Source of the DNA: Pseudorhizobium pelagicum
Lineage (GTDB): Bacteria; Pseudomonadota; Alphaproteobacteria; Rhizobiales; Rhizobiaceae
Length of the DNA: 64,000 nt
Assembly (NCBI GenBank): GCA_000722615.1
Contig: JOKI01000008.1
Location: 133,511 to 197,510 of the forward strand
Direction of reading: 5' to 3'
In this document: piece by piece, positions 2,800 to 32,449 of the stretch
Numbering within the stretch: the stretch's first letter is position 1
Layout of the letters: each line of letters begins with the position of its first letter
Translations under genes and position numbers: made by a program
Notes under the pieces: model-generated
Told to the model about the DNA's origin: nothing
The model's database searches: none
Seen by the model: the letters and a program-made list of their open reading frames with translations, nothing else

Positions 2800-3435
2800 T
2801 TACTCTGCCAGCTTCCTGGCTTGGCCGACCCAGTCGTCCCTGCCGATGCGCCCATCGAGCCCGAGAGCCTCGTCGAATTTGGCAATATCGTCCTCGCTCC
2901 ACGAAGCGATCTGAGCGACGCGGCTCACACCGTTTTCCTGCAGCACCTGTTCAAGCTTCGGACCGATCCCCTTGATCTTCTTCAGGTCTTCCGTCTTGGC
3001 ACCGGCTGCAGGCTTGCTGGCCGGCTTTGCCTTGGCGGTGCGCTTCGGCTGCGCCTTGGGTTCTGTCCTGGCCTTCGCAACCTTGGCCGCCGGAGCGCCG
3101 GCCGTCTTCTGACGCGGCGCTCTGGGCTTTGGAGCGGGAGCCGGTTCGGCGGGCGTCTGCGCCGTCTTTTCCGGCGGCGCGGCGACCCCACTCGTCTCCT
3201 GTGCGCTGTTCAGGCGCTTCGAGGTTTCCAGGGCGCTCTGGAGCGCACCGAAGAAGGCGCTGGCGAACTGGCTGGTGATCGTCAACCCGACCGCCGTTGC
3301 GGTCGCCATGGCGGCGGCCGACTGCGCCATCAGTGGGTTCATGGCCAGAGCTTCGGCGAAAGGCGCGCGCGCGGGATCGGCCGCAGGCTTGTCTGCCGCC
3401 GCCTTCCCCTCGGGTCCTGTCACCGGTTGCTTCAC
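2800..3435 (-). CDS. Helix-hairpin-helix (H3TH, COG3743-like) protein in the nuo operon
   Basis: This 211-aa protein is encoded inside the complex I operon between nuoF and nuoG. Residues 1-75 contain a hydrophobic Ala-rich stretch and residues 80-145 are a Pro/Ala/Lys-rich, probably disordered linker. Residues 150-211 form a compact domain with the motif KKIKGIGPKLEQVLQENGV, typical of helix-hairpin-helix folds that databases label 'predicted 5' DNA nuclease, flap endonuclease-like'. I chose the GTG at 3435, which starts 4 bases after the nuoF stop and has GGCGGAG upstream. The longer frame would begin inside nuoF. A role as a complex I accessory or assembly factor is inferred from position only. 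No nuclease active-site residues are evident. Confidence 0.85.
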   Translation of the reverse strand: MKQPVTGPEGKAAADKPAADPARAPFAEALAMNPLMAQSAAAMATATAVGLTITSQFASAFFGALQSALETSKRLNSAQETSGVAAPPEKTAQTPAEPAPAPKPRAPRQKTAGAPAAKVAKARTEPKAQPKRTAKAKPASKPAAGAKTEDLKKIKGIGPKLEQVLQENGVSRVAQIASWSEDDIAKFDEALGLDGRIGRDDWVGQARKLAE

Positions 3436-30187: not shown

Positions 30188-31471
30188 TCAGATCTTTGCG
30201 AGCGATTGTTCGAGGTCGGCGATGATGTCCGCCGGGTCCTCGATGCCAATCGACAGGCGCACCACGTCCGGGCCGGCGCCGGCGGCCACCTGCTGCTCCT
30301 CGGAGAGCTGGCGGTGGGTGGTGGAGGCCGGGTGGATGACGAGCGAGCGGGTGTCGCCGATGTTGGCCAGATGCGAGAACATCTGCAGCCCCTCGACGAA
30401 GGTCTTGCCGGCCTCGTAGCCGCCCTTCAGGCCGAAGGTGAAGACGGCGCCGGAACCCTTCGGCGCATACTGCTGCTGCAGCGCGTGGTTCGGATCGTCC
30501 TCCAGCCCGGAGTAGCTGACCCAGGAGACCTTCTCGTGCGCCTTCAGCCAGGTGGCGGCGGCGAGCGCATTGTCGCAGTGGCGCTGCATCCTGAGCGGTA
30601 GCGTCTCAATGCCGGTCAGGATCATGAAGGCGTTGAACGGCGAGATGGCCGGGCCGAGATCGCGCAGGCCGAGCACCCGGCAGGCGATTGCGAAGGCGAT
30701 GTTGCCGAAGGTCTTGTGCAGCTCGACGCCGGCATATTCCGGACGCGGCTCCGAGAGCATCGGGTAGCGTCCGGACTGCGACCAGTCGAAGGTGCCGCCG
30801 TCGACGATCATGCCGCCCATGGAATTGCCGTGGCCGCCGAGGAATTTCGTCAGCGAATGGACGACGATGTCGGCGCCGTGCTCCAGCGGCCGCAGCAGAT
30901 AGGGGCTCGCCATCGTGTTGTCGACGATCAGCGGCAGGCCGTTGCGCTGCGCGACCTCGGCGATCGCCGCGATGTCGACGAAGGTACCGCCCGGGTTCGC
31001 CAGGCTCTCGATGAAGATGCCCTTGGTGCGTTCGTCGATCTGGCTCTCGAAGCTTGCCGGATCGGCGGGATCGGCCCAGCGGACCTCCCAGCCGAAGTTC
31101 TTGAAGGCATGGCCGAACTGGTTGATGGAGCCGCCATAGAGCTTGCGGGCGGCGAGGAAATTGTCGCCCGGCTGCATGATCGTGTGGAAGACCAGCATCT
31201 GCGCCGCATGGCCGGAGGCGACTGCAAGTGCTGCCGCGCCGCCCTCCAGCGCCGCGACGCGCTCCTCGAGCACCGCCTGTGTCGGGTTCATGATGCGGGT
31301 GTAGATATTGCCGAACTGCTGCAGGCCGAAGAGGGCGGCGGCATGGTCGGCGCTCTCGAAGACGAAGGACGTGGTCTGGTAGATGGGAGTTGTGCGGGCG
31401 CCGGTGGCGGGATCGGGCTGGGCGCCCGCGTGAACGGCAAGCGTCGCAAAGCCCGGATTGTGTGTCGACAT
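30188..31471 (-). CDS. metY: O-acetylhomoserine sulfhydrylase (PLP enzyme)
   Basis: This 427-aa Cys/Met-metabolism PLP enzyme would make homocysteine from O-acetylhomoserine and sulfide. Marks are the N-terminal [39 protein letters not shown] and the PLP lysine K209 in [12 protein letters not shown]. The length with the insert typical of MetY/Met17, rather than MetB/MetC, favours this assignment. ATG 31471 has GGGAGGAAGAC upstream. It leads a two-gene unit with the cupin. Confidence 0.93.
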
Positions 31472-31522
31472 GTCTTCCTCCCTGAAATGCAGAACTGGTG
31501 TCGCTTCAACAAACCTCCTCGG

Positions 31523-31536
31523 TTGATCCCGATCAA
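31523..31536 (+). promoter_or_regulatory. Perfect FNR/FixK-type box
   Basis: TTGATCCCGATCAA is an exact TTGAT-N4-ATCAA dyad, the consensus site of FNR, FnrN and FixK regulators. Its centre is about 59 bases before the DUF6455 ATG, which fits activation at -41.5 with a short leader. It is 52 bases before metY on the other strand. Confidence 0.8.
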
Positions 31537-31588
31537 GGAAATTCCGTCGACGCAGGCTAGCCTTTCGAGAAACAGAGAGGGGATTGCT

Positions 31589-32017
31589 ATGGAAACCGAT
31601 GCGCACCGCCAGACACAGTCACTGACATCGCGGCTGTTGCAGTGGTGTTCGCAGGCCTGGGAGGCGGCAACCGAGACGGATGTCATCGGCCAGCTGGACG
31701 ACCGGACCTTGGCTGAGCTTTCCCGCGACTGCGGCGTCTCGACCGATCAGCTGAAGCGGCTGGCGAGTGCCGGTCCGCATGCCGCCGACGAGATGGTCGC
31801 CCTGATGCTGGCCATCAACATCGACCCCGCCGAGGTGGCGAGGCTCTATCCGGAGCAGTTCCGCGACATGCAGGTCAACTGCTCGCTCTGCGAATCCAAG
31901 GACCGCTGCCGGCACGACCTCGGCGAGCAGGTCATCGATCGGGAATATCTCCGCTACTGCAGCAACGCCGACCATCTGAAGGCGCTGCAGCAGGAGGCGC
32001 CGCTGCTGATGGCCTGA
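31589..32017 (+). CDS. DUF6455 protein with a four-cysteine motif
   Basis: This 142-aa soluble protein is largely helical and ends in a cysteine-rich domain with C98-x2-C101-x5-C107-x16-C124 (CSLCESKDRC then YLRYCSNAD). The pattern suggests a metal or Fe-S site. The ATG at 31589 has AGAGAGGGG upstream. A perfect FNR/FixK box lies 53 bases before it, so oxygen-dependent expression is likely. The exact function of the family is not known to me. Confidence 0.85.
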   Translation: METDAHRQTQSLTSRLLQWCSQAWEAATETDVIGQLDDRTLAELSRDCGVSTDQLKRLASAGPHAADEMVALMLAINIDPAEVARLYPEQFRDMQVNCSLCESKDRCRHDLGEQVIDREYLRYCSNADHLKALQQEAPLLMA

Positions 32018-32020
32018 GCG

Positions 32021-32449
32021 TCAGGCCACCAGGCGCGGGTATTCGATCGCCGGGCAACGGTTCATCACCACCTTGATACCGGCGGCCTCCGCCTTGGCGG
32101 CAGCATCATCGTCGCGCACACCGAGCTGCCCCCAGATCACCTGGGGCGGCTGCGGCAAGGCCGCCGCCTCGGCGACGATCCCGTCCAGGAATTCCGGTGC
32201 CCGGAAGACATCGACCATGTCGACCGGCTGCGGAATGTCCGACAGCTTCGCATAGACCGTCTGCCCGAGGATCTCCTTGCCCGCCTGCCCCGGATTGACC
32301 GGGATCACCGTATAGCCCTTCGACAGCAGGAAGCGCATGACGCCGTTGCTCGGACGGTCGGGGTTCGGCGAGGCGCCGAGCAGCGCGATCGTCTTCGTCG
32401 TCTTCAGGATGTCGGCGATATAGGCGTCGTCGTAGCGGTCGTGGTTCAT
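32021..32449 (-). CDS. CoA-binding protein (YccU-like)
   Basis: This 142-aa Rossmann-fold protein has the family start region KTIALLGASPNPDRPSNGVMRFLLSKGY, which forms the dinucleotide/CoA-binding loop, and the downstream VIWGQLGVRDDDAA and MNRCPAIEYPRL. Proteins of this family bind CoA; a precise cell function is not settled. ATG 32449 has GGAGGCTACCC upstream. Its stop lies 3 bases from the convergent DUF6455 gene. Confidence 0.9.
   Translation of the reverse strand: MNHDRYDDAYIADILKTTKTIALLGASPNPDRPSNGVMRFLLSKGYTVIPVNPGQAGKEILGQTVYAKLSDIPQPVDMVDVFRAPEFLDGIVAEAAALPQPPQVIWGQLGVRDDDAAAKAEAAGIKVVMNRCPAIEYPRLVA

Follow-up and report, generated by a model that had tools for sequence, protein, structure and literature searches.

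A gene of the DUF6455 family in Pseudorhizobium pelagicum is preceded by an exact FNR/FixK box, and comparison with relatives indicates that it is almost certainly under FNR/FixK low-oxygen control. The box is kept before the gene in other genomes, at a nearly fixed distance and together with a -10 element. The pairing of box and gene recurs in other alphaproteobacterial families, and has probably been glimpsed already as a "hypothetical protein" of Bradyrhizobium.

FNR/FixK box and predicted promoter of the DUF6455 gene

The DNA analysed (the window) was a stretch of 64,000 nt. The DUF6455 gene is located at 31,589-32,017 on the forward strand. Its 142-aa product matches Pfam DUF6455 (PF20056) at 27.3 bits (cut-off 23.7), and was the one match when the genome was searched for this family. 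The box TTGATCCCGATCAA (31,523-31,536, forward strand, centre 31,529.5) agrees exactly with the anaerobox TTGAT-N4-ATCAA given for rhizobial FnrN/FixK in the available parts of two papers (PMC7888657; PMC11784457). An earlier note on this DNA had reported an exact dyad about 59 bases before the ATG, and both points were accurate: the box is the only exact TTGAT-N4-ATCAA site in the window, and its centre is 59.5 nt from the ATG at 31,589. When one mismatch was allowed, the window contained 2 sites vs. 0.79 expected from shuffles. Because 17 of 100 shuffles reached 2 sites, the window by itself is no proof of the box.

In class II FNR promoters, the box is at -41.5. A -10 hexamer, TAGCCT (31,558-31,563, forward strand), has its centre 31 nt further downstream than that of the box. 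Among loci from relatives (see below), 45 of 60 have A at the second and T at the sixth hexamer position at this offset; at the other 15 offsets (8 per direction in all), the same pattern reached 13 of 60 loci at best. Since this geometry is that of class II FNR promoters, transcription is predicted to start near 31,571 on the forward strand (box centre + 41.5), which would put the box at the class II position. A Shine-Dalgarno-like AGAGGGG follows at 31,576-31,582 on the same strand. Scans for sigma-70 promoters and terminators, and an Rfam search, found nothing in 31,400-32,100. Activating boxes are placed at -32 to -34, with the box end unspecified, in the part of PMC7888657 available; with the predicted start, the downstream end of TTGATCCCGATCAA would be at about -35.

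Across the whole genome (5.13 Mb), there were 10 exact boxes vs. 0 occurrences of a reversed control pattern; each box, being palindromic, was reported for both strands. We examined 6 kb around each of the nine other exact boxes and profile-scanned the adjoining proteins. Seven of the nine adjoin usual low-oxygen targets. Exact boxes were found by coxB/ctaC (L036), by fixN (L040; ccoN match at C4:139043), by the 5-aminolevulinate synthase gene hemA (L041), by hsp20 (L042), by the universal stress protein gene usp (L043), and at hemN and an FnrL/FnrN-like gene lying back to back (L039). Another (L037, box at 3001) is upstream of an arginine/ornithine antiporter gene (arcD) followed by arginine deiminase (arcA), an arrangement comparable to that of arc operons under ANR control. 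The box of L038 (at 3001) has an unusual setting for an FNR target, flanked by a gene for a GntR/UTRA-type regulator and one resembling alkanesulfonate monooxygenase, and no recognisable gene adjoined the box of L044 in the 6 kb read. The fixN box is also adjoined by a gene for a PAS-like protein and by a divergent one for a hemerythrin-like protein (L040, 1708-2956; named by eye).

The genome encodes an FNR-type regulator. The product of L039:2214-2978 scored 226.7 bits with NCBIfam FnrL (model cut-off 300) and above the cut-off with Pfam Crp and cNMP_binding, and an N-terminal cysteine cluster was recognised by eye. This FnrL/FnrN-like gene has its own exact box. Among the closest known systems is the anaerobox regulon of rhizobial FnrN/FixK (fixNOQP, fixGHIS, fnrN, hsp20), which uses the same TTGAT-N4-ATCAA box; in P. 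pelagicum, exact boxes likewise occur at fixN, hemN, the FnrL/FnrN-like gene and hsp20. The present case differs in that the target belongs to a protein family of uncharacterised function and that the -41.5 position follows from the predicted start. We propose that, when oxygen falls, FnrN and/or FixK would become active, bind at -41.5 and recruit RNA polymerase, and that this class II FNR/FixK-activated promoter would turn on a DUF6455 protein that is small and probably cytoplasmic.

Conservation of the box and its assignment to the DUF6455 gene

A DUF6455 match was present in 31 of 60 relatives, own genome included, and in 30 of 36 of the same genus. In all 30 loci retrieved, the gene had a box with no more than one mismatch; 18 were exact and the other 12 differed at one position. 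Seventeen of these sequences were aligned, and the resulting search, which was keyed on one short conserved motif and is therefore not exhaustive, found 62 named contigs; the two sets overlap. The box was exact in 32 of the 62 loci, had one mismatch in 28 and two mismatches in 2. Conservation before orthologues, the check suggested in the earlier note, thus held in 60 of 62 loci at one mismatch or fewer, with no refutation. The two-mismatch loci were both Bradyrhizobium MAGs carrying TTGATCTGCCGCAA, which matches the FixK2-type consensus TTG[AC]-N6-[GT]CAA.

The distance from the box to the DUF6455 ATG was 57.5-61.9 nt (10-90 percentiles, n = 60), with extremes of 56.5 and 73.5 nt; the extremes exclude one outlier (L077, 179.5 nt) whose value depends on the start chosen. 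In the 620,701 bases of the 62 loci, there were 60 boxes with no more than one mismatch at the gene vs. 19 elsewhere. A single site in 64 kb is unremarkable alone, as would be expected of a chance palindrome; however, the site, its spacing and the -10 element are conserved across 60 loci. The genome count, this conservation and the rarity of such boxes elsewhere ruled out a chance origin, to which we attach a negligible probability.

The divergent gene at 30,188-31,471 (reverse strand), which we take to be metY from recall and from the earlier note, is a neighbour outside the DUF6455 unit, as is the convergent gene for a CoA-binding-domain-like protein (named by eye) at 32,021-32,449 on the reverse strand. 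Gene order is well kept in the 62 loci: metY and the CoA-binding-like gene were each found in 60, rplM and rpsI in 59, a cupin gene in 48, a P450 gene in 40 and a thioesterase-like gene in 17.

The metY start (31,471) is 58.5 nt from the box. The box is therefore about midway between metY and DUF6455, and the suggestion in the earlier note that it could also influence metY was a fair one. A box serving metY, and lying near DUF6455 incidentally, would fit the midway position in this genome and in a few close relatives (56.5-59.5 nt; L062-L064). However, its distance to metY drifts from 56.5 to 203.5 nt (10-90 percentiles 61.5-113.9 nt, n = 60), and no -10 element toward metY was found at the tested offsets in the 60 loci. 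metY is present in every one of the 22 genus and family genomes that lack a full DUF6455 match, and no box with one mismatch or fewer lies in the 800 nt upstream of it; a weak, C-terminal match to DUF6455 occurs elsewhere in two of these genomes, G529 and G628. At one metY locus with no DUF6455 gene beside it (L167), a site with two mismatches lies 67.5 nt away. DUF6455 also retains the box in other neighbourhoods. Because the metY distance varies and the 22 metY loci are without the box, we assigned the box to DUF6455; metY was rejected as its real target and is very improbable in that role, and the loci compared gave no support for an additional effect of the box on metY.

Low-oxygen control of the DUF6455 gene, as proposed from the window, is strongly backed by box conservation, spacing, the -10 element and the missing box where the gene is absent, and also by published expression of the probable Bradyrhizobium orthologue blr0497, identified from gene order (see below).

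Several observations concern the loci themselves. The nearest named relative for the DUF6455 gene is Pseudorhizobium tarimense, with 75% identity. The gene evolves faster than its neighbours: identity in L062 was 75%, compared with 84-94% for metY, rplM, rpsI and the CoA-binding-like gene. In one MAG (L119, 5001-5425), the DUF6455 frame stops after 68 aa, from sequencing error or decay. A MAG labelled Arenimonas, a gammaproteobacterium, has this locus (L079) with a metY 85% identical, suggesting that the bin was mislabelled or is mixed.

Distribution beyond Rhizobiaceae and the probable Bradyrhizobium orthologue

DUF6455 was found in at least 14 of 289 genomes of the class and, by alignment, in at least 45 of 397 genomes of the order, own genome included in both counts; the scans scored part of the candidates, so that absences are soft. 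We collected 41 loci outside the genus and family. A box with one mismatch or fewer lay within 350 nt of the chosen start in 20 of them, and 33 had either such a strict box or a FixK2-type box, at 50-75 nt from the start in 24. Background in the same loci was ~0.02 (strict) and ~0.04 (FixK2-type) per 360 bases. The remaining 8 loci had neither type within the scanned upstream region, and three loci left out of this count (L056, L057 and L153) had no box with one mismatch or fewer. These rows are not independent, since one family (f193), Bradyrhizobium-like judging from boxes and sequence, supplies 11 of the 41 and a single genome supplies a few. In two of nine plasmid records, CTGATCCACATCAA (Azospirillum brasilense Sp7) and TTGATCCAGCGCAA (an Aminobacter) lie upstream of DUF6455. 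An A. brasilense DUF6455 transcript, OH82_RS00065, which may or may not be that of the plasmid gene, is up under ethylene (log2 1.67) and counts with the 36 that respond most strongly, in the available part of the one paper found to name the family (PMC11819568).

Genes in 20 regions outside the 62 loci were called by a GC heuristic and then read by eye. In one region (L197, 1573-10337) of a distant genome (G683), DUF6455 and a Crp/FNR-type gene point away from each other on either side of an exact box. Within 5 kb there are also nnrS, narI and narH, along with an Rrf2-type gene and one encoding a molybdopterin-binding domain. These neighbours tie at least one DUF6455 member to nitrate and NO metabolism. 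L197 stood out in this respect; no partner gene common to different families was found in the 20 regions, and neighbourhood was set aside as a guide to function. Two regions have more than one DUF6455 gene: L198 has three tandem matches in one genome with a box before the first, and L201 has two facing genes with a one-mismatch box upstream of each.

The L197 setting suits an accessory or repair factor for respiration (cbb3 oxidase, haem, nitrate or NO metabolism) rather than a regulator. The same reading draws on the co-members fixN, hemA, hemN and coxB that share the box in this genome, and on a weak co-occurrence with ccoN, which scored above the cut-off in 39 of 45 DUF6455-positive genomes vs. 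254 of 352 others (p = 0.046, kinship ignored). However, six positive genomes (G044, G569, G590, G634, G646 and G710) have no ccoN above the cut-off, and no respiratory genes were recognised by eye beside DUF6455 in the 19 regions other than L197. We consider a respiratory factor unlikely.

The Bradyrhizobium orthologue was sought through gene order. DUF6455 lies between leuD and asd in L184 and L187, with leuB next in L187. One paper, as far as available, gives leuC as blr0488 and leuB as bll0504 in B. diazoefficiens. If one counts back from leuB and allows for two genes, then asd, the carbonic anhydrase gene, a citE-like gene and one of 250 aa, DUF6455 falls at 0497 and on the same strand as leuC. 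The 250-aa gene occurs in L184 but is missing from L187, and the interval in L186 contains one other gene; the count therefore requires the L184 arrangement in B. diazoefficiens. We take leuD to be blr0495, which fits the count. On gene order over two differing loci, blr0497 is very likely the DUF6455 orthologue of B. diazoefficiens.

The published record of blr0497, in the portions available, agrees with low-oxygen control. The gene was predicted to belong to the FixK core regulon (ortholog set 5478) and depends on FixK2 (Dufour 2010, PMC2908626). At 0.5% O2, its transcript rose 14.1-fold and its protein by log2 3.8; in bacteroids it was up 12.7-fold, and it is marked as a direct FixK2 target (PMC6515984). 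Both papers label it "hypothetical protein" (PMC2908626; PMC6515984), and two further papers include it in lists with no function given. We found no study of its function in the available parts of the FnrN/FixK2/FnrL regulon literature, including PMC4999443, PMC7888657, PMC11784457, PMC2908626 and PMC6515984. Set 5478 thus resembles the present system in being microoxia-induced, FixK2-dependent and probably the Bradyrhizobium DUF6455 gene; it differs in that the portions available do not describe the cysteine site, the family or its recurrence.

The cysteine site and possible roles of the protein

The earlier note had read a CxxC-x5-C...C motif in the protein that could hold a metal. The motif was confirmed as C98-x2-C101-x5-C107-x16-C124, with codons at 31,880, 31,889, 31,907 and 31,958 (site 31,880-31,960, forward strand). 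C98, C101, C107, C124 and N126 were invariant in 71 of 71 aligned members, and D47, D79, R92 and L111 were nearly invariant. The four cysteines were also invariant in 52 of 52 sequences of a core alignment to which four short forms were added. Conserved cysteine ligands, as in an iron-sulfur protein, were therefore present in both sets, with an invariance that is partly by construction because the members were gathered with profiles containing the cysteines.

The protein was predicted to be all-helical, and no signal sequence was seen by eye. The full-length model had a pLDDT of 78.7, with residues 1-40 weak (38-65); the core model (residues 58-142) had six helices, a pLDDT of 90.2 and a pTM of 0.81. 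Neither model gave a fold match in the PDB at E ≤ 0.001. A sequence search of solved structures yielded weak matches only, the best at 0.0085 to entry NF6, which we take to be a designed protein.

Given their invariance, the four cysteines probably hold a bound metal, and we regard the joint claim of FNR/FixK regulation plus a metal site as reasonably likely. The CxxC-x5-C triad is known from Cas4/AddB/Nth-type clusters. Because the protein has one CxxC knuckle only and this triad, a [4Fe-4S] centre is somewhat favoured over Zn. The likeness to the [4Fe-4S] nucleases Cas4 and AddB lies in four cysteines with the triad; the protein differs in that neither sequence nor fold comparison gave a match at E ≤ 0.001 and Pfam showed no nuclease domain.

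A purely structural Zn site, in a stable adaptor that senses nothing, is possible though not the outcome we expect. The four cysteines sit within a small, confidently predicted helical domain, and weak PknG_rubred matches in 3 of 71 members keep a rubredoxin-like or Zn site in play. One Cas4/AddB relative binds Zn with the same cysteine arrangement, according to the part of the paper available (PMC3466216). Against Zn stand the single CxxC knuckle and the low-oxygen expression, which is no less compatible with a labile Fe-S centre; neither of the two points is decisive.

The N-terminal half (residues 1-92; 31,589-31,864, forward strand) resembles two known groups in pairwise profile comparison: DUF1127 (32 sequences) over residues 11-62 at 88.7%, and the Cro/C1-type helix-turn-helix HTH_26 over residues 40-89 at 85.5%. 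These percentages are pairwise profile probabilities, not database searches. In the controls, 45 decoy windows gave ≤2.0%, shuffled columns ≤1.7% and the C-terminal half 0.1% for both profiles. Neither match is specific, since an initial full-length comparison with DUF1127 (6 sequences) gave 29.6% and the two profiles are themselves somewhat alike (HTH_26 vs. DUF1127, 26.9%). By Pfam, the protein belongs to neither group. It was not listed for DUF1127 (PF06568; cut-off 23.3 bits) at E ≤ 1, and 5 of 71 members matched at E ≤ 0.1 (best 0.0026). It scored 15.4 bits with HTH_26 (PF13443; cut-off 22), which 7 of 71 members matched at E ≤ 0.1.

The small DUF1127 proteins, such as CcaF1 and YjiS, thus share a profile resemblance with residues 11-62. 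The available parts of the sources describe CcaF1 as RNA-binding and other DUF1127 proteins as acting on the kinase PhoR, and place the domain often in proteins of <50 aa (PMC12501420). The DUF6455 protein differs in having 142 aa and a four-cysteine domain, and Pfam lists no DUF1127 in it. The likeness to Cro/C1-type domains is confined to residues 40-89 and stays below the cut-off; DNA binding is putative here.

From these elements, we propose that the protein would contain one four-cysteine metal centre, more likely [4Fe-4S], and that its helical, DUF1127-/HTH-like N-terminal half may bind nucleic acid or a protein partner. It could then regulate the low-oxygen state at a second tier, in a metal-dependent way. 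A role as regulator is a tentative suggestion. More doubtful is the fuller proposal that DUF6455 is a class of FNR/FixK-dependent low-oxygen regulators that would combine a DUF1127/HTH-like nucleic-acid-binding part with an oxygen- or NO-labile [4Fe-4S] domain.

DUF6455 is of interest as an unstudied, widespread, cysteine-bearing FNR/FixK target. With a single type of promoter, four fixed cysteines and a probable orthologue known to be induced in microoxia and to depend on FixK2, an anonymous family becomes open to testing as a component of the low-oxygen response of alphaproteobacteria. If the cluster is labile, the protein would add a second oxygen-linked step downstream of FNR/FixK; if the proposed regulator class is real, many alphaproteobacteria would gain a second check on their oxygen or NO state after FNR.
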